Shown piece after piece: positions 283 to 8,205 of a DNA stretch of 42,849 nt. The stretch is from Gemmatimonadaceae bacterium. GTDB lineage: Bacteria; Gemmatimonadota; Gemmatimonadetes; Gemmatimonadales; Gemmatimonadaceae. The notes beneath the pieces were generated by a model that ran no database searches, was not told the DNA's origin, and worked only from the letters and a program-made list of their open reading frames with translations. The translations under genes and the position numbers were made by a program. Positions within the stretch are counted from its first letter, which is position 1, and every line of letters begins with the position of its first letter. The DNA lies in contig DASYSS010000103.1 in the NCBI GenBank assembly GCA_036003045.1, positions 1 through 42,849 on the forward strand, read 5' to 3'.

Positions 283-1476
283 CTAGCGAAGCGCCTGCTC
301 GATGTCCGCGATCAGATCCTTCGCGCTCTCGATGCCGACGCTCAGCCGCAAGAACCCGTCAGGAATCCCGGCGCGGGCGCGCTCGGCCGACGTCAGGTGG
401 GCGTGCGACGTAAAGCGCGGCTCGGAAACGACGGAATCGACCCCGCCGAGGCTCGGAGCGTGGCGGAAGATGCGAATCCGCTGGAGGAATCGGGTCGCGG
501 CGTCGGCACCGCCGGCTAGCTCGATCGCCATCATCCCGCCGAAGCCGTCCATCATCCCTTTGGCCGTTTCGTGATCCGGATGATCCGGCAACCCGGAGTA
601 GTGCACTTTGGCGATCGCCGAATTCGTCGCGCACCACTCGGCGATGCGCATCGCGTTTTCGTCTTGGCGGTGAACGCGGATCTCCAACGTCTTGAGACCG
701 CGCTCGAGGAGCCATGCGGCGAATGGATCGGGGGCCTGTCCCCACACCATCATCTTCTGGCGAACTTCCTCGATGTACGGCGCCGTGCCGCACACCATCC
801 CGGCGAGCACGTCGTGGTGGCCGTTGAGATACTTGGTCGCCGAGTGGATGACGACGTCGGCGCCGTGCTCGAGCGGGCGTAGGTTGACCGGACTCGCGAA
901 CGTCGAGTCGACGACGAGCGCGATGCCCAGCTCCTTCGTGATGTAGCTGACCGGCCGCAAGTCGATGACGCGGCACGTCGGGTTGATCGGCGTCTCGAGG
1001 AAAATCGCGCGGGTCGTCTTGCGCAGCCGTTTGCGCCAGACGCGCGTCTCCGTCGGATCGATCAGCGTGACGTCGATGCCGAATGTCGCGAACTCCGTCG
1101 CAAGAAGCCGCGAGACACCGCCGTAAATCGCGCCGCTGGCGAGGAGATGGTCGCCGGGGCGGAGCAGAGCGAGCAGCGCGCACGCGACAGCGCCCATTCC
1201 GCTCGCCAGCAACACGGCGCTCTCCGCGCCCTCGAGCGCCGCGACGCGCTCTTGCACGATCTCGGCGTTGGGAGAATTGCCGTAACGCGGATAGCGGAGA
1301 CCGTCGCCTGTGCCGATCTCCTGGTTGAAGTTCACCGACTGGAAGAGGGGGTGAACGACGGGCGTATCCGATTCGTGGGCCGGGCTGCCGGCGTGGACGG
1401 CGAGCGTCCCGACGTCGAGCGGCGACCGGCGAGTCTGCCCGGAGCGCCTGGCGCGGGGGGGAGGTTGGTCAGGCAA
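283..1476 (-). CDS. Cys/Met-metabolism PLP-dependent enzyme (cystathionine gamma-synthase/lyase family)
   Basis: This is a 397-residue fold-type I PLP enzyme of transsulfuration, a family including cystathionine gamma-synthase, cystathionine lyases, methionine gamma-lyase and O-acyl-homoserine sulfhydrylase. The RYGNSPN segment (64-70), the SGMGAV loop (92-97), the DSTFASP segment (190-196) and the Schiff-base lysine in SATKYLNGH (Lys215) are all present, and the length is normal. The C-terminal SLGGVDSVVSEP segment is the usual family signature region. The start is a TTG, with GGAG about 11 bases upstream. It overlaps the preceding small gene by 8 bp, so it is probably translated from the same message. 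Exact substrate cannot be settled by eye; cystathionine gamma-synthase or lyase is the best guess. Confidence 0.9.
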   Translation of the reverse strand: MPDQPPPRARRSGQTRRSPLDVGTLAVHAGSPAHESDTPVVHPLFQSVNFNQEIGTGDGLRYPRYGNSPNAEIVQERVAALEGAESAVLLASGMGAVACALLALLRPGDHLLASGAIYGGVSRLLATEFATFGIDVTLIDPTETRVWRKRLRKTTRAIFLETPINPTCRVIDLRPVSYITKELGIALVVDSTFASPVNLRPLEHGADVVIHSATKYLNGHHDVLAGMVCGTAPYIEEVRQKMMVWGQAPDPFAAWLLERGLKTLEIRVHRQDENAMRIAEWCATNSAIAKVHYSGLPDHPDHETAKGMMDGFGGMMAIELAGGADAATRFLQRIRIFRHAPSLGGVDSVVSEPRFTSHAHLTSAERARAGIPDGFLRLSVGIESAKDLIADIEQALR

Positions 1477-1780
1477 AGGCGGTGTTTCTCCGTCCGCGAT
1501 TGTCGAGGTCCGGCTTCACCACACGAACGATCTCCGACGGCGATGCGCCGGCCACGTCACGCAGCACGACGTCTCCGGCGCGCAGCGACTCGTCGATTCG
1601 CACCGTCGCGAGCTCGCCGCGGCGCGGGCCGTACACCCACGCGAGCTCACCCTCGTTGAGCAGTCGGTTGCGGGCGTCGGCGGGGTTCAGCGTCACCATC
1701 GGTCCGCGGTCGGCGTCGCCCTTTCGCGACGCGTCGAGCCGCAGCACGCGCAGCGGACGGTCGAGCAGCTCGCGATCCAC
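1469..1780 (-). CDS. Small protein resembling a molybdopterin-dinucleotide-binding beta-barrel domain
   Basis: This is a 103-residue protein with a GTG start. It lies 4 bp after the STAS-winged-helix gene and overlaps the PLP enzyme by 8 bp. The central part (about 28-90), with DARNRLLNEGELAWVYGPRRG followed by an ATVRI-DESLRAGDVVL run, resembles the double-psi beta-barrel domain at the C-terminus of molybdopterin oxidoreductases. There the pattern is residue-poor helix, 'G-D-x-V-x-V-x-S-x-R-G', then 'P-G-x-V'. No catalytic molybdenum subunit is encoded here, so a stand-alone barrel may have another role. The resemblance is by eye only. Context ties it to the STAS/HATPase genes upstream. Confidence 0.6.
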   Translation of the reverse strand: MDRELLDRPLRVLRLDASRKGDADRGPMVTLNPADARNRLLNEGELAWVYGPRRGELATVRIDESLRAGDVVLRDVAGASPSEIVRVVKPDLDNRGRRNTAFA

Positions 1781-1784
1781 GACG

Positions 1785-2342
1785 TCACGCCTGGAAGTGG
1801 CCGACCGCGATGTACTCGTCGTTGGCGCGCATCACGAGTCGGCGCCCGCAAAGCGAATCCAGCGTGCCGCGCACGAGCGTCGAGTCCGACCCGGTCGCGA
1901 TCGCGACGTCGTCGGCGTTCGCGGTGCCGAGGCGGTACACGGCTTCCCAGGTGCTGCGCTCGTCGTCGCTCAGCATGCCGGCGACCTTCACGCCTTCGGC
2001 ATTCTCGACGGCGAGGGCGAGGCCGTGACGCTCGAGCACCGCTTCGATCGCGACCCAGTGGTCGTCGTTGACGCCTCTGAACAAGAAGTACGCGTCGTCG
2101 GACGCGTAGCGCATGAGCAGCTTGGCCACGACTTCGTCGGCGCACGAGAAGTCGATCATCGACACCTGCGAGAAGTCGATGATCGTGAACGAGCGCGCGT
2201 CGGCGGAATCCGTCGGATCCGCGAGCAGCTGCTCGATCTGGCCGCGAACCGCGGCGCCGGTGGGGCGCGTGACGAGATTCGAGTAGAGATCGCACGACAG
2301 CGTCTGACGAAGCACGCTGCTCAGATCGATGTGGTGCATCAT
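1785..2342 (-). CDS. STAS-like domain protein with C-terminal winged-helix DNA-binding region
   Basis: This is a 185-residue protein. Residues about 50-115 look like a STAS (anti-sigma-antagonist) or DUF4325-type domain: the strand FTIIDFSQVSMIDFSCADEVV (52-72) has the hydrophobic strand, Asp-Phe-Ser turn and helix of STAS proteins, with Ser66 where the phosphorylatable Ser of SpoIIAA-type antagonists sits. Residues about 128-180 (ERSTWEAVYRLGTANADDVA, then DSTLVRGTLDSLCGRRLV) resemble a winged helix with a short wing. The gene overlaps the upstream STAS-HATPase gene by 4 bp. Two ATGs are adjacent (2342 and 2339); GGAG just upstream is better spaced for the second. Role inferred: output half of a partner switch. 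Confidence 0.75.
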   Translation of the reverse strand: MMHHIDLSSVLRQTLSCDLYSNLVTRPTGAAVRGQIEQLLADPTDSADARSFTIIDFSQVSMIDFSCADEVVAKLLMRYASDDAYFLFRGVNDDHWVAIEAVLERHGLALAVENAEGVKVAGMLSDDERSTWEAVYRLGTANADDVAIATGSDSTLVRGTLDSLCGRRLVMRANDEYIAVGHFQA

Positions 2343-3238
2343 CGCTCCGTCGATCCTCCGTCCATGGCCTCAGGAATGATTACCTGAACTTGCGCGCCAG
2401 GGAACTGGGGGAGCCCTTCCACGAGCGGCGGATCGTCGTCCCAGTCGGGCACAATGCCGATCCTGGCGGTGCCGCTCCGCACGGACAGCTTGCCGTTCCA
2501 GCGCCCGACGTAGTTTCGCGCCCCGGCGAGCCCGTGTCCCCGGCCCCGCTCGCGAAACCGGCTCACGCCGCGAATCACCGCCTCCTCGAGCGCGGCGGCG
2601 TCGTCCCAGCGCGTGGTCGGCAGGTGGCCGGGCGCGGTCTCGAGGGACCTTCGGAATCCGAGCCCCGCGTCGCAGACGGCGATTACCACCACCCGTCGCC
2701 CGAGACGCTTCGTCCAGCGATAGCTCTGCACGGCGACCCATCCGCCTTGCCCCGCGTGCTCGATGATGTTCTGGCAAATCTCCGACAGGGTCATCGTGAA
2801 GCCGAGGATCGCCTTCGACTCGAGATGCATCTCGTTGTGCAGGATGCGCTGCGCGCCCTCCTGCACTCGGCCGACGACGCCGTGCACGTCGTCGCTCCCC
2901 GCGACCGGTGTAATCTCGAGAAGCACGCTCGATTCGCCGGTCTCTTTCCGCTTCGGGTACGCCCCCCGAAGGTCGTACAGGCCCTCGGCGTAGTGGAAGA
3001 ACGCCGCGCGTCGCCAGTACGACAGCGTCTCCTCGAGCTCCGGAACGGCGAGCGCCGGGCGCTCCTCACGCGTCTGAGCGAGGGTCAACAACGCCGTGAG
3101 GCCGTACGGCGTCGCCCATCTCACGTGCCGCGCGTCCACGAGCAGCTTCGCGTCGGGAGGCAGGGGTGCGAGCTGTTCCAACAGCTGCTCGAACGTGTGC
3201 TCGTCGAGCGAGGGCGGAACAATGAGGACGTGACTCAC
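2339..3238 (-). CDS. STAS-HATPase_c fusion protein (anti-sigma/GHKL kinase-like)
   Basis: This is a 299-residue protein. The N-terminal part (about 1-110) has a STAS-like strand (KLLVDARHVRWATPYGLTALL) but without the usual Ser-Ser; Thr43-Pro-Tyr occupies that turn. The C-terminal part (about 130-295) is a GHKL ATPase: the N box is SEICQNIIEHA (Glu153, Asn157), G1 is CDAGLGF (189-195) and G2 is GRGHGL (232-237). Proteins of this class act as serine kinases or anti-sigma factors in partner switching. It starts with GTG, overlapping the PfkB stop by 4 bp, and its own stop overlaps the STAS-winged-helix gene by 4 bp, so the three are probably translationally coupled. The signal it senses is unknown. 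Confidence 0.82.
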   Translation of the reverse strand: MSHVLIVPPSLDEHTFEQLLEQLAPLPPDAKLLVDARHVRWATPYGLTALLTLAQTREERPALAVPELEETLSYWRRAAFFHYAEGLYDLRGAYPKRKETGESSVLLEITPVAGSDDVHGVVGRVQEGAQRILHNEMHLESKAILGFTMTLSEICQNIIEHAGQGGWVAVQSYRWTKRLGRRVVVIAVCDAGLGFRRSLETAPGHLPTTRWDDAAALEEAVIRGVSRFRERGRGHGLAGARNYVGRWNGKLSVRSGTARIGIVPDWDDDPPLVEGLPQFPGAQVQVIIPEAMDGGSTER

Positions 3239-4230
3239 GTGAGGCTGATCGTTCCCCGGAGATAGTCGGAGAGCCCTGAGGCTCCGCGGTGCCCGACGTT
3301 GCGAGCGGCCGCGCGGTGGGCGGCGAGGATGGCGTCGCCAAAGTTATCACCGGCCAGCAGTCGCGAGAAATAGGTCGCGCCCCACACGTCGCCGCATCCC
3401 GTCGGGTCGCCGCCGTCGACGACGTGGTCCGCGGGCACGATCGACGTGCGCATCGGCCCGACGTCCGACGCGATCGACTGGAACGGGCGGGGCGAGGCGG
3501 GGCGCGCGAGCTCGAGCCGCTCGAAGTCGGCCGCGGCGAAGTACACCGCGCCCCGCTTGGCCAACGTCACGACGAGGCACCGCACGCCGGCGTGCAACGC
3601 CGTCGCGGCGAGCGCCATGGGATCAGCGGCGAGCATCCGCATCTCGTCCTCGTTGACCTGGACCACGTCGAAGCAGCCGCACCATTCGCGGACGTTGGAG
3701 ATCGGCCGCAGCGTCCGGAGCCCATCGGGCTGCACGGCCCAGGCGAGCATGTGTAAGTCACAGTAGATCGGACCCGCGAATGACTGACGCACGAGCATCG
3801 TCGTATCGAGGTCGAGCTCCCACCCACTCAGAAAATTGATGTACAGGGCGTCGAGTCGCGCCGTCTCCAGCACCGGCTTGAGCCCCAGCCACGTCCATGG
3901 CGGAACGCCGCCGTGCATCACTTCACTGCGCCGCTCGTCGTCGAAGTAGCGTAGCTCGACGCGGTTGTTCGGGTACGGCACGACGATCGGCCGGGCGTCG
4001 GACGACATGCGCCGCATGCCGCTCATGAACTGCGACGCCGCCGGCGCGAGATCTTCGCCGACCTTGATGATCGGCACGATCTCCCACTCGTCGGACAGGG
4101 CCGCGTCCATGCCGCTGAGCGCGTAACTGATCCCGCCCCATTCCGCGATGGGGGACGAGCGCGTGTCTCGGCCGTAGATCACGTCCCACACGATCGAGCC
4201 GATGACGCCGACGCGCCGCTTGCGCGTCAC
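3235..4230 (-). CDS. PfkB-family carbohydrate/nucleoside kinase
   Basis: This is a 331-residue ribokinase-fold kinase. The N-terminus (RKRRVGVIGSIVWDVIYGRD) is the family's first strand and substrate Asp region. Near residue 285, DGGDPTGCGDVWGATYF matches the PfkB signature 2, with the GCGD anion hole and catalytic Asp. The open frame extends upstream to 4494, but that part lies over purH on the same strand and is Arg/Ser-rich, so it is not coding. I chose the GTG at 4228-4230, which has GGAG 7 bases upstream. The substrate is undetermined; sugar or nucleoside are both possible. The gene lies 40 bp after purH and overlaps the STAS-HATPase gene by 4 bp. Confidence 0.85.
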   Translation of the reverse strand: MTRKRRVGVIGSIVWDVIYGRDTRSSPIAEWGGISYALSGMDAALSDEWEIVPIIKVGEDLAPAASQFMSGMRRMSSDARPIVVPYPNNRVELRYFDDERRSEVMHGGVPPWTWLGLKPVLETARLDALYINFLSGWELDLDTTMLVRQSFAGPIYCDLHMLAWAVQPDGLRTLRPISNVREWCGCFDVVQVNEDEMRMLAADPMALAATALHAGVRCLVVTLAKRGAVYFAAADFERLELARPASPRPFQSIASDVGPMRTSIVPADHVVDGGDPTGCGDVWGATYFSRLLAGDNFGDAILAAHRAAARNVGHRGASGLSDYLRGTISLT

Positions 4231-4270: not shown

Positions 4271-5809
4271 TCAGTGGCGGAACTGTCGCTTGCCGGTGAA
4301 CAGCATCGCCATTCCGCGCTCGTTCGCCGCCGCGATGACTTCGGGGTCGCGCACCGAACCGCCCGGCTGGACGATCGCCCGTACTCCGGCTTCCGCGGCC
4401 TGGTCGATGCCGTCACGGAATGGAAAGTACGCGTCCGATCCGAGCACGGATCCATCGGTCGCGTGGCCGGCCAGCGACGCTTTGTGCGCGGCAAGGAAGG
4501 CCGCGTCCACCCGCGACATCTGCCCGGCGCCGATTCCGATCGTCGCGCCGTCGCGCGCCAGCACGATCGCGTTCGATTTGACCGACGCCACCGCGCGCCA
4601 CGCGAACAACAGGTCTCGATACTCCCCGTCGCTCGGCTTTCGCGTGGTCACGAGCGTCCATCCCGAATCGTCGATCACCGCCGGAGCGCGCTCTTGCACG
4701 AGCACGCCGCCCCGCACACGCTTGTAGTCGAGATGGTTGTCCGAGGTGAGAACGCTCGCACGCCCCTCGAGTACGCGGAGGTTCTTCTTGCGGCCGAGGA
4801 TCTCCACCGCGCCCGGGCTGAACTCCGGCGCGACGATGCATTCCACGAAGAGGCTCGCCACGGCATTCGCGGTCGTGTCGTCGACTGGCACCGTGAACGC
4901 GATGACCGAGCCGAACGCCGAGATGGGGTCGCACGCGAGGGCTTTCTTGTAGGCATCGAGCGCGTCGGCGCCGACGGCGAGACCGCACGGCGACGTGTGC
5001 TTCACGATGGCGCACGCCGTCTCCGTCGCGAACGGATCGATGGCGAGCAGCGCTCCCTCGAGGTCGAGCAGGTTGTTGAACGAGAGCTCTTTCCCACCGC
5101 GCTGCGCTAGGCCGCCGAGCCCGGCGCCCGGGCGCTCGACGTAGAACGCGGCGGACTGCCCCGGGTTCTCGCCGTAGCGCAACGACTGCGCCCGCTCGAA
5201 CGACACGACGATGTCCGGCGGAAACTTGTCGCCGCGCTCGCGCGCGAACCACGACGCGATCGCCGCGTCGTACGCCGCGGTGTGGGCGAACGCCTTGCCG
5301 GCGAGCAATCGGCGGAGGTCGATGTCGTCGTCGCCGGCGTCGAGCGCCGAGTGTACGCGCCCGTAGTCGTTCGGGTCGGCGATCACCCAGACCGACTCGA
5401 AGTTCTTCGCCGCGGACCGCAGCATGCTCGGCCCGCCGATGTCGATGTTCTCGATCGCGTCCTCGCGCGTCGCGTCCTTGCGCGCGACGGTCTCGCGAAA
5501 CGGATAGAGGTTCACCGCCACGAGGTCGATCGGCGTGATCCCATGCTCGGCGAGCGCTTTCATGTGTTCCGGGATGTCACGCCGAGCGAGGAGCGCGCCG
5601 TGTACGGCCGGATGCAGCGTCTTCACCCGGCCGTCCATCATCTCCGGGAATCCCGTCACATCGCTGACGTCGCGCACTGTGAGACCGGCGGCCCGCAGCG
5701 CCTTCGCCGTACCGCCGGTGGAAACGAGCTCCCAACCGAGCTCGGCGAGCGCGCCGGCGAACTCGACGACGCCGGTCTTGTCAGAAACGGAGAGCAGAGC
5801 GCGGGGCAT
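4271..5809 (-). CDS. purH: Bifunctional AICAR formyltransferase / IMP cyclohydrolase
   Basis: PurH catalyses the last two steps of de novo purine synthesis: formylation of AICAR by 10-formyl-THF and ring closure to IMP. The 512-residue length is normal. The N-terminal IMP cyclohydrolase (MGS-like) domain has SVSDKTGVVEFA at the start, VSDVTGFPEMMDGRVKTLHP (48-67) and HGALLARRD. The C-terminal transformylase domain has RYGENPGQSAAFY, FNNLLDLEGAL and the catalytic KHTSPCG, ending in QPGGSVRDPEVIAAANERGMAMLFTGKRQFRH, a typical PurH C-terminus. The ATG is at 5807-5809. purN lies two genes upstream in the same run, so two formyl-transfer steps of the pathway sit together. Confidence 0.97.
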   Translation of the reverse strand: MPRALLSVSDKTGVVEFAGALAELGWELVSTGGTAKALRAAGLTVRDVSDVTGFPEMMDGRVKTLHPAVHGALLARRDIPEHMKALAEHGITPIDLVAVNLYPFRETVARKDATREDAIENIDIGGPSMLRSAAKNFESVWVIADPNDYGRVHSALDAGDDDIDLRRLLAGKAFAHTAAYDAAIASWFARERGDKFPPDIVVSFERAQSLRYGENPGQSAAFYVERPGAGLGGLAQRGGKELSFNNLLDLEGALLAIDPFATETACAIVKHTSPCGLAVGADALDAYKKALACDPISAFGSVIAFTVPVDDTTANAVASLFVECIVAPEFSPGAVEILGRKKNLRVLEGRASVLTSDNHLDYKRVRGGVLVQERAPAVIDDSGWTLVTTRKPSDGEYRDLLFAWRAVASVKSNAIVLARDGATIGIGAGQMSRVDAAFLAAHKASLAGHATDGSVLGSDAYFPFRDGIDQAAEAGVRAIVQPGGSVRDPEVIAAANERGMAMLFTGKRQFRH

Positions 5810-5822
5810 AGGCGTTTGAAAC

Positions 5823-6004
5823 TAGCGCCAACAGAAACGTTTTACGCAGGCCTTGTCTCGGCAGCCCAGCCACTGTTGGCGCCGGCCAAAATTGAACACA
5901 GATGCCGCAGACCTTGAACAGCGATTCCGCAGTAACTACAAAGCCTTTGTTGTTGGTATCTGCGGGATTGCTCTTCCAATCTGCGGCATCTGTGTTCCCA
6001 TTTC
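5823..6004. repeat. Long imperfect hairpin repeat, copy 1
   Basis: The gap between the M42 peptidase gene and purH carries a large inverted repeat. AACACAGATGCCGCAGA at 5895-5911 is exactly the reverse complement of 5980-5996. Inside it GCGATTCCGCAG pairs imperfectly with CTGCGGGATTGC, leaving a short A/T-rich loop near 5930-5955. A related hairpin occurs at 18843-18956. A second, separate inverted pair, GCGCCAACAG (5825-5834) and its complement (5873-5882), lies nearer the purH start. The whole element is in the purH 5' leader, so it could act on purH expression or be a non-autonomous REP/MITE-like insert. Confidence 0.8.
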
Positions 6005-6045
6005 TTAAACCGAGTAGTGGCCCGCTCGGCGTACGGCATGGGTCT

Positions 6046-8205
6046 CTACGGCTTGCGCGGTATCGCCGTGGGAGCCTTCGCGACAGCCGCCACGATGCGT
6101 GTGAGCGAACGCAGGTCGCGGAGGTCCAGCATCTCGGCGGGCGAATGACTGTAGCGCAAAGGGTAGGCGAGCGCGACGTCGATCGCGCCGACGCGCGCGA
6201 ACTCGGAGCCGTCGTTGCCGCCGTTCGTCACGCCGACTTGCAGCGGAATCCGCTCCGTCCGGGCGATGCGCGTCACGCGATCGATCTCGTCTGGGGGCGT
6301 CACGCTCGAGTTATCGAGCGCGCGCATGACGGCGCCCTGTCCGATCGGTGCGTCGGCGAAGCGCTGACTCTCCAGCGGCGAGTCCGACGACACGAACGTG
6401 TCCACGGCGTGCACGCGGTGCACCGACGGGCCGAAGATCGCCGCGGCGGCCTTCGCCCCTTCCAAGCCGCCTTCCTCGCGCACCGAAAACATGAAGATCA
6501 CCTTGTGATCGAGCTTCGCCGGGTCGATCTCGTCGAGCGCGAGCAGCAGCGCCGTGATTCCGGCGCGATCGTCGATCGAGCGTCCGGTGATGCGCGTGTC
6601 GCCGACGCGCGCCGAGCACTTGAAACCGGTGAGCGCTAGGCCGACGTGCACGCCGGAGTTCACGAGCTCGGCGGAGTCTCGCGCGAACCAAGCGGTGAGC
6701 GTCGCGGGCTCGCGGTTGCGCGAGCTGTCTCGCGGTACGAACACGCCGCGCATCGGCCCTCCGCGCGACGCTTCGCACCCGAGCTTTCCGTCGCGCGGCG
6801 CCTGGTGGTCGGTCGGCCGGTGGAGGAGCGCCGGTTGTCCTTCCCACAAGAATGGAAAGAACGTCCCGCGTGGCCTCAGTGACACAACGCCGTTGCGGTC
6901 GATCGCGGTGATGACGAAGCTGATCTCGTCCATGTGCGCCACGATGACCGTCGTGTCGCGGTTCGGCCCCATCGGAACGATCAGATTCCCTGCGGAATCG
7001 ACTTGCGCGAGCGCTCGAGCCCATGCCGGCAGCATCGACTGAATCGCGTCGCGCATCGGCTGCTCGAACCCGGACGGCGCGTACACGTCGGTGAGTTTCC
7101 CGAGCACTTCGGCGTAACGCGACAGCGAGTCTTGGACCATGAGCGGCGGCGCGGCGACCCAGCCGTGTCGCACCGCGATCGGCCGCGGCGCGTCGCTTCC
7201 AACCGCCGCGGCACGCGCCACCGCGCGGAAGAGCGACTCGATGTCAGTCTCTTGCAGCGTTTCGGCGAGCGTTCCCGCGAAACGCGACAGAACGCCGATC
7301 GACAGCGTGGCGCCGACGTCCAGCCCGGCCAACGGCGGCCACGGCGCGCGCATCTCTCGTGGCGTGGACTGCATCCGACCCAGATCGCCGTCCACCACGA
7401 ACAGCGAGTCCACGCGCCCGAGGCGACGCAACGCCGACGTGAGCCCGGCCCATGAGAACGACTTCTGAGTCGAGACGATGAACACCGTCTCGCCCGTGCT
7501 CGGCTCCTTCGCCGATGCGGCGGCGACGGCCGCACACCCGGCGCGATTGGAAGCCGCCGGACCGGCGACGAAGTCGCTGAACGTCCACTCGGGCCAATCG
7601 CGCACCACGGGATCGAGCCGATCGATGCCCATCTTCACGACCTCGGCGCGGGAACGCGCGCCGACGTCGAGCCACAGGTTCTCGATCGACGTTGGCGAGT
7701 CGTCGGCGGGGCGGCCGCGCCAGAGGTGGTTGCTCCGCACGGCGAACACGCCCGTCACGTTGTGCGACCGCTGCGGATTCGTCCGGTCGACGGCGATAAC
7801 GATGACTCGCTGGCCTTCGTGGAACTGATTCCACAGCGCGACGTGCTTTCCGTTGCCGATGCCGTGCACGCGCAGATAACCATCGTCGCCGATGTCACTG
7901 ACGACGTATCCCGTTTCGTCGATGCCGCATGCGACGACGCGCTTCGGGGAGCCGCTGCCGGTGTGCTTGACGAGATTCCCCGAGTCGTCGCGCGCCCAGC
8001 CGTCGGTCGCGCTCAGGATGCGATCGGTCGCGAGCCGCTCGTAGCCCGGCGTCGCGATGAGCGCGATCCAGGTCGACACGGCGTGCGAGTAGGGCGGCGT
8101 CGCGAGCGTGTCCTGTGCGCGCGCGAGAGCCGGCGCTCCCGCCGTGAGCGCAACGAAGACGCCGGCTGCGTTAGCGAGCCAGCGCGAGATCGATGTTCTC
8201 GGCAA
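6046..8205 (-). CDS. Secreted M42-type metallopeptidase with tandem catalytic and degenerate copies
   Basis: This is a 719-residue protein with a signal peptide (about 1-30, ending ALARA-QD). The second half (about 360-715) is an M42/M20-like aminopeptidase with apparent metal and catalytic residues: AHMDE (His424, Asp426), SIDDRAG (Asp546), REEGG (Glu577, Glu578), AVDT (Asp602) and YSHS (His687). The first half (about 35-350) appears to be a decayed copy of the same fold: CGIDETGYVVSDI (93-105) aligns with AHMDEISFVITAI but lacks His, and ASNRAG (218-223) replaces the Asp-Asp-Arg segment. It starts at a TTG inside purN, overlapping it by 35 bp, with a strong AAGGAGG 9 bases upstream. It probably hydrolyses peptides outside the cytoplasm. 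Confidence 0.87.
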   Translation of the reverse strand: MPRTSISRWLANAAGVFVALTAGAPALARAQDTLATPPYSHAVSTWIALIATPGYERLATDRILSATDGWARDDSGNLVKHTGSGSPKRVVACGIDETGYVVSDIGDDGYLRVHGIGNGKHVALWNQFHEGQRVIVIAVDRTNPQRSHNVTGVFAVRSNHLWRGRPADDSPTSIENLWLDVGARSRAEVVKMGIDRLDPVVRDWPEWTFSDFVAGPAASNRAGCAAVAAASAKEPSTGETVFIVSTQKSFSWAGLTSALRRLGRVDSLFVVDGDLGRMQSTPREMRAPWPPLAGLDVGATLSIGVLSRFAGTLAETLQETDIESLFRAVARAAAVGSDAPRPIAVRHGWVAAPPLMVQDSLSRYAEVLGKLTDVYAPSGFEQPMRDAIQSMLPAWARALAQVDSAGNLIVPMGPNRDTTVIVAHMDEISFVITAIDRNGVVSLRPRGTFFPFLWEGQPALLHRPTDHQAPRDGKLGCEASRGGPMRGVFVPRDSSRNREPATLTAWFARDSAELVNSGVHVGLALTGFKCSARVGDTRITGRSIDDRAGITALLLALDEIDPAKLDHKVIFMFSVREEGGLEGAKAAAAIFGPSVHRVHAVDTFVSSDSPLESQRFADAPIGQGAVMRALDNSSVTPPDEIDRVTRIARTERIPLQVGVTNGGNDGSEFARVGAIDVALAYPLRYSHSPAEMLDLRDLRSLTRIVAAVAKAPTAIPRKP

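Follow-up and report, generated by a model that had tools for sequence, protein, structure and literature searches.

Five genes lie head to tail on the minus strand near the start of the window (the whole stretch of 42,849 nucleotides of Gemmatimonadaceae DNA that was analysed), in the order PfkB-family sugar kinase, P0001, P0002, small barrel protein and Cys/Met PLP enzyme (Table 1). P0001 and P0002 share the 4 bp at positions 2339-2342, which supports the translational coupling put forward in the preliminary description, and the PfkB gene overlaps P0001 by another 4 bp. The motif T277-G278-C279-G280-D281 of PfkB is conserved to at least 97% across 60 sequences. As read from the sequence, the first 140 bases of the window apparently hold the beginning of ftsE; similarity to FtsE is present in the window. 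An NCBIfam search gave no equivalog for P0001, P0002 or PfkB, and none of the papers listed in a literature search dealt with this locus in Gemmatimonadota. Upstream of PfkB, the window (4271-8205) and a near relative (L032) carry purH and a peptidase gene, and the other mapped loci carry lepA-GT9-ROK; the former arrangement is a local rearrangement shared by a small set of related genomes.

Table 1. Genes and features of the locus in window coordinates
Feature	Position	Strand	Remarks
P0004, PfkB-family sugar kinase	3235..4230	-	Pfam E 3.6e-9; catalytic motif intact
P0001	2339..3238	-	299 aa, GTG start; N-terminal STAS and C-terminal GHKL of serine-kinase type; CapK/SpoIIAB-like
STAS-like domain of P0001 (aa 1-93)	2960..3238	-	STAS_2 weak; VIA match TM1442
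GHKL kinase domain of P0001 (aa 103-292)	2363..2932	-	VIA match SpoIIAB; catalytic Asn157 codon 2768-2770
P0002	1785..2342	-	185 aa; STAS (aa 1-122) and winged helix (aa 123-183); CapS-like putative substrate
Ser66 codon, predicted phosphosite (CapS Ser54 position)	2145..2147	-	Ser in 101/101; alignment to CapS Ser54
Winged-helix domain of P0002 (aa 123-183)	1794..1976	-	AlphaFold2 model; fast-evolving, absent in some lineages
P0003, small Molydop_binding-type barrel protein	1469..1780	-	Pfam E 8.5e-7
P0005, Cys/Met PLP enzyme (cystathionine gamma-synthase type, CGS)	283..1476	-	Pfam E 8.2e-121

In P0001, HATPase_c was recognized by Pfam over its cut-off (E 4.9e-6; 27.4 bits vs 26.4) and STAS_2 remained under it (E 0.006); the two domains were matched in 61 and 21 of 61 homologues, respectively. 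The AlphaFold2 model, built on the 61-sequence alignment, had a pLDDT of 92.3 and a pTM of 0.91. By VIA-align, its kinase domain matched SpoIIAB at Z 14.5 (rmsd 2.4, 133 residues) and RsbW at Z 12.2, while true histidine kinases scored lower (Z at most about 9.7 in the list), and the modelled kinase fold is predicted to be nearest to SpoIIAB/RsbW. The N-terminal domain matched the anti-anti-sigma factor homologue TM1442 (Z 9.5, 88 residues, rmsd 2.5). These results bear out the earlier proposal that a GHKL ATPase and a STAS domain are joined in one protein. Residues E153, N157, H161, D190, G192, G194, G234 and G236 were invariant in all 101 sequences compared. Searches of the PDB with single sequences by phmmer gave nothing useful.

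Since SpoIIAB and RsbW are the nearest solved folds of P0001, a classical partner switch was also considered, with P0001 as anti-sigma factor, P0002 as its antagonist and a sigma factor as output. This seems quite improbable to us, because in the genome of the window no SigB/F/G-type sigma factor scored over the cut-off of the model (six near-full-length sigma-70-type matches scored lower), no sigma gene is among the genes named in the mapped block, and P0001, unlike SpoIIAB, has a STAS domain of its own. As a separate observation, the same genome (G000) has several HATPase_c_2 matches in a row on contig C17 (about 70388-73088), perhaps a stressosome-like cluster, and an RsbW-like match at C99:111307-111681.

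P0002 alone gave just a weak TrmB match in Pfam (E 0.088), and the matches of its 61 homologues were all weak as well (DUF4325 'STAS-like' in 17, TrmB in 10 and MarR_2 in 8). The AlphaFold2 model of P0002 (61-sequence alignment; pLDDT 94.6, pTM 0.89) has a STAS fold up to about residue 122, followed by three helices (126-138, 143-150, 154-166) and a two-strand wing (170-173, 176-179), so that the structure prediction of both proteins agrees with what had been proposed for them. The STAS part was similar to SLC26-type STAS domains (Z 10.8, 101 residues), and the C-terminal part to MarR-type winged helices, with Rv0880 at the top (Z 11.0, rmsd 1.9, 61 residues). No CapS entry was among the Foldseek/VIA matches listed for P0002 (library to 2026-04-08); the best PDB match of the P0002 profile was CapS 9z71, a weak one (E 0.012).

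CapS belongs to the CapK-CapS system, which the portion of the report of Chambers et al available to us (EMBO J, June 2026; PMC13373217) presents as a regulator of anti-phage immune islands. As described there, CapK is an HTH-STAS-GHKL kinase and CapS a STAS-wHTH repressor; unphosphorylated CapS dimers repress, and CapK bound to single-stranded DNA (ssDNA) phosphorylates Ser54, upon which CapS becomes monomeric and leaves the DNA. Locus L108, which has the same CapS (WP_001567865.1), was included. In hhalign, the P0001 profile was aligned with CapK at E 4.7e-9 over 244 columns and the P0002 profile with CapS at E 5.2e-5 over 136 columns, with both domains in order (both are single-comparison values). 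Ser66 of P0002, which falls on CapS Ser54 and had been suggested earlier as the phosphosite, was invariant together with Asp64 (101/101). Judged by these sequence profiles, the pair appears to be a distant chromosomal relative of CapK-CapS.

CapS-like plasmid proteins served as a control for the serine. Among the 14 CapS relatives below 60% identity on plasmids, 9 were taken; H59 (second Vibrio record), H65 (Sphingobium, already covered by L110) and H69-H71 (58% coverage) were left out, and the comparison of CapS relatives omits L160 (unannotated) and L162 (whose annotated start lies past the match). Where a GHKL gene is adjacent, the serine was kept in 8 of 8. In L161, L163 and L164, the annotated stretch shows no gene of kinase size immediately before the CapS-like gene; these three proteins carry C, A or T in place of the serine and are possibly kinase-free derivatives. 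The serine is therefore tied to the presence of a kinase, which supports an active switch in the present pair. Outside the phylum, P0001 had 4 matches among 72,556 plasmid records, all of them further CapK-like genes. Three of these precede different genes (CapS-like with multiubiquitin; DUF4325; STAS/wHTH-like), and the fourth, from Nostoc (L109 1890-3134, WP_251960854.1), holds a STAS-GHKL kinase and DUF4325 in one chain. A single partial match of P0001 was found in phages. For P0002, tblastn gave no match in plasmids, 103 pattern matches in viral contigs gave 0 confirmed ones, and a contig scan with P0002 as the sole query found only Gemmatimonadota, the named relatives being metagenome-assembled genomes in 15 of 15 loci.

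Homologues of P0002 were present in 190 of 200 genomes of the phylum, and those of P0001 in 191, comprising strong matches in the same 190 genomes and a weak one (2.1e-4) in G007; the pair thus co-occurs in other genomes, as the preliminary description implied. Many genomes of the survey are fragmented and probably metagenome assemblies. Of the ten genomes without the pair, six belong to family f10 and two to f8; f2 and f5 contribute a single one each (about 90% complete). Chance open reading frames and misread folds were ruled out by this distribution together with the AlphaFold2 models. From the 190 genomes, 100 loci were examined closely, 60 of them spread over genera and 40 filling f2 and other families. 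Both genes were on the same strand in every locus and directly adjacent in 97 (-100 to +73 bp), with a 4-bp overlap in 66 and a 1-bp overlap in 8. In family f6 (L101, L102, L152) the two genes are separated by 518-1334 bp, in which an extra gene may be inserted. The kinase/STAS pair is vertically inherited and core chromosomal in one bacterial class.

The gene order of the 60 genus-spread loci was lepA, heptosyltransferase-type GT9, ROK kinase, PfkB, P0001, P0002, (barrel), CGS and ftsE, with PfkB present in 59, ROK in 57, lepA in 55, CGS in 47, ftsE in 40, GT9 in 35 and the barrel gene in 20. All 20 barrel genes belong to f1, the window's family, and a conserved four-gene module was rejected on this ground; from the four-gene unit first proposed, the pair behind PfkB remains as the class-wide part. 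According to the part of the source available (PMC11237797), Gemmatimonadota have a chromosomal region of high strand bias with conserved genes. Gene order in the phylum can thus be conserved for general reasons, and synteny alone is not a functional proof. The whole block from lepA to ftsE is syntenic, so the adjacency of the pair is partly general, and the two genes could be a mere conserved arrangement with no joint function. We find this scarcely credible, because both genes are missing together from the same ten genomes (bar the one weak GHKL match), plasmids from other phyla carry related pairs again, and in f8 the pair is missing from between its two retained flanks. In the latter family (L154 6104-8159; L155 7074-9217), lepA-ROK-PfkB-CGS is retained in 2 of 2 loci and the pair is absent precisely between PfkB and CGS, which is a natural deletion or an ancestral absence.

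The close association with PfkB, which immediately precedes P0001 in 59 of 60 loci with a 4-bp overlap in 54 of 66, agrees with the coupling noted at the outset and raises another explanation, that the target of the pair is PfkB or another enzyme of the block, which P0002 would bind and restrain until phosphorylation releases it. The six f10 genomes have neither PfkB nor the pair, and there is a precedent in VapS, a STAS protein without a winged helix that, in the available portion of PMC13373217, can hold an enzyme (VapC). On the other side, f8 keeps PfkB without the pair, so PfkB can exist without the switch, though the PfkB of f8 has diverged (about 31% identity). We regard this target as unlikely in its specific form. 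A protein partner is the main alternative to a DNA output, and PfkB is the nearest candidate for it.

A full winged-helix domain was present in 84 of 101 P0002 sequences (83 of 100 loci), and the domain was ancestrally present. P0002 could be a true CapS-like repressor, whose unphosphorylated dimers would sit on an operator by means of their winged helices until phosphorylation of Ser66 releases them, derepressing the own block or distant genes. The confident fold with its MarR-type match, the operation of CapS in this manner (PMC13373217, as far as the available text describes) and the residues R167 and R168, which are K/R in 81% and 90% of the 84 full-length proteins, favor such a function. 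Against it, Asn145 of CapS is Asn in 0 of 84, Lys151 is Lys in 1 and the wing glycines G169-G170 are found in 8, while 11 CapS relatives keep them in 9, 10 and 10-11, respectively. The net charge of the whole domain is -1.4 on average and zero or below in 83% of the 84, although the ranges overlap with that of the 11 CapS controls (-1 to +4). The recognition-helix stretch has a mean charge of -0.35 (n=84), and none of the 11 controls, for which a slightly different stretch was used, has a negative value there. Moreover, most of the domain is lost in 17 of 100 loci. We consider the repressor a fair alternative to keep in mind, though not the one we expect. Of the earlier idea that a STAS domain is joined to a DNA reader, the fold stands and the DNA-binding output is doubtful.

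The winged helix also varies more than the STAS domain (entropy of 2.57 vs 1.69 bits). In 12 of 14 close pairs its dN exceeded that of the STAS domain, with synonymous sites near saturation, and its identity equalled or exceeded that of the STAS domain in 1 of 14 pairs here vs 8 of 15 CapS control pairs. The pN/pS of 0.22-0.66 in the 14 pairs indicates purifying selection, which, together with the retention in 83 of 100 loci, argues that the domain does something. In the 17 loci without most of it, the DxSCADE motif and the C-terminus span 62-90 residues, vs at least 119 otherwise; 14 of these loci are in f2 and the others in genus g5 of f1 (3 of 3 genomes). On the P0001 tree these losses need three changes, at least two of which are forced by starred branches. 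The 17 loci keep the serine and the kinase motifs, and hence the essential job of the pair does not always depend on the winged helix. In genus g5 (L051, L134, L135), P0002 stops after the STAS domain and a short tail, SYIAVTH, which is like the last wing strand in the window protein (EYIAVGH); an in-frame loss of the winged helix would account for such an ending.

Taken together, we propose that P0001 and P0002 probably form a GHKL/STAS kinase-substrate switch in which P0001 toggles P0002 at Ser66. A serine-kinase switch is well supported by the computed folds, invariant residues, co-inheritance, adjacency and profile homology. P0001 would bind ATP as well as P0002, by the STAS domain of the latter, and then phosphorylate Ser66, and this phosphorylation would alter the self-association or the partner binding of P0002 and switch the output. 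No phosphatase is among the genes named in the mapped block. Since the CapS contact residues are gone and the winged helix is dispensable in some lineages, we think that the conserved function runs via the STAS domain and probably acts on a protein partner whose gene lies in the same operon or close to it; any DNA binding would be no more than an extra or modified output of some members of the class. As for the signal, Trp68 of CapK stacks ssDNA and is required for activation by it (PMC13373217, in the part available). The corresponding column is aromatic in 2 of 101 P0001 sequences and Trp in 6 of 8 CapK relatives compared (exceptions, Janibacter and Nostoc), with some uncertainty of alignment because the neighboring column 11 is Phe in 30 of 101. 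Because P0001 lacks this Trp, ssDNA sensed by way of it is probably not the signal. A wider reading, which we offer tentatively and think rather doubtful as a whole, is that a CapKS-type switch has turned into core class-wide machinery, in which the winged helix no longer reads DNA in the manner of CapS and has been repeatedly discarded, the phospho-STAS protein gates a protein partner tied to sugar-kinase, envelope or division genes (PfkB, GT9, ROK, FtsE), and the signal is other than ssDNA.

A class-wide, vertically inherited housekeeping relative of CapK-CapS would show this switch working outside immunity. The lineages with and without the winged helix, and the family that lacks the pair in place, are natural knock-outs by which the STAS output could be separated from the DNA output. 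In addition, two unknown proteins that are almost universal in a little-studied phylum are given a likely biochemical role.

Among other known systems, SpoIIAB-SpoIIAA and RsbW-RsbV share with the present pair the GHKL fold and the position of the phosphoserine in the STAS domain, but here the kinase has an additional STAS domain and the substrate an additional wHTH, and there is no linked sigma factor. VapK-VapS-VapC (PMC13373217, as given in the available text) also has a STAS-GHKL kinase and a STAS protein with a conserved Ser/Thr and so resembles the lineages without the winged helix; however, VapS ends in a short C-terminal helix instead of a wHTH, and no VapC/PIN gene is among those named in the mapped block. 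DUF4325 (PF14213) is related through the 17 of 61 P0002 homologues that match it (best E 0.0012) and through its fusion with GHKL in the Nostoc plasmid protein, whereas P0002 itself scored 12.2 bits vs the curated cut-off of 23 bits.

The closest likeness is to CapK-CapS. In both, a STAS-GHKL kinase gene comes immediately before a STAS-wHTH gene (97 of 100 loci here), the catalytic Asn (N218 of CapK) corresponds to N157 of P0001 (101 of 101), a STAS domain with the (here predicted) phosphosite Ser at the same place is followed by a wHTH, and the profiles of both proteins are collinear. P0001 differs in starting at the STAS domain, without the N-terminal HTH of CapK, a part which the available text of PMC13373217 describes as dispensable for activation. 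An immune operon follows CapK-CapS in 348 of 443 cases in the same source, but the pair here is not found by immune operons and is followed by barrel, CGS and ftsE, or by CGS and ftsE, in most of the 60 loci. The preliminary description knew of no system of this layout; that statement has to be withdrawn, as the layout itself is already described for CapK-CapS in the portion of PMC13373217 at hand, and what is distinct here is a core chromosomal pair, vertical in one class, with no immune linkage and with a decaying DNA-reading part that is gone in some lineages.
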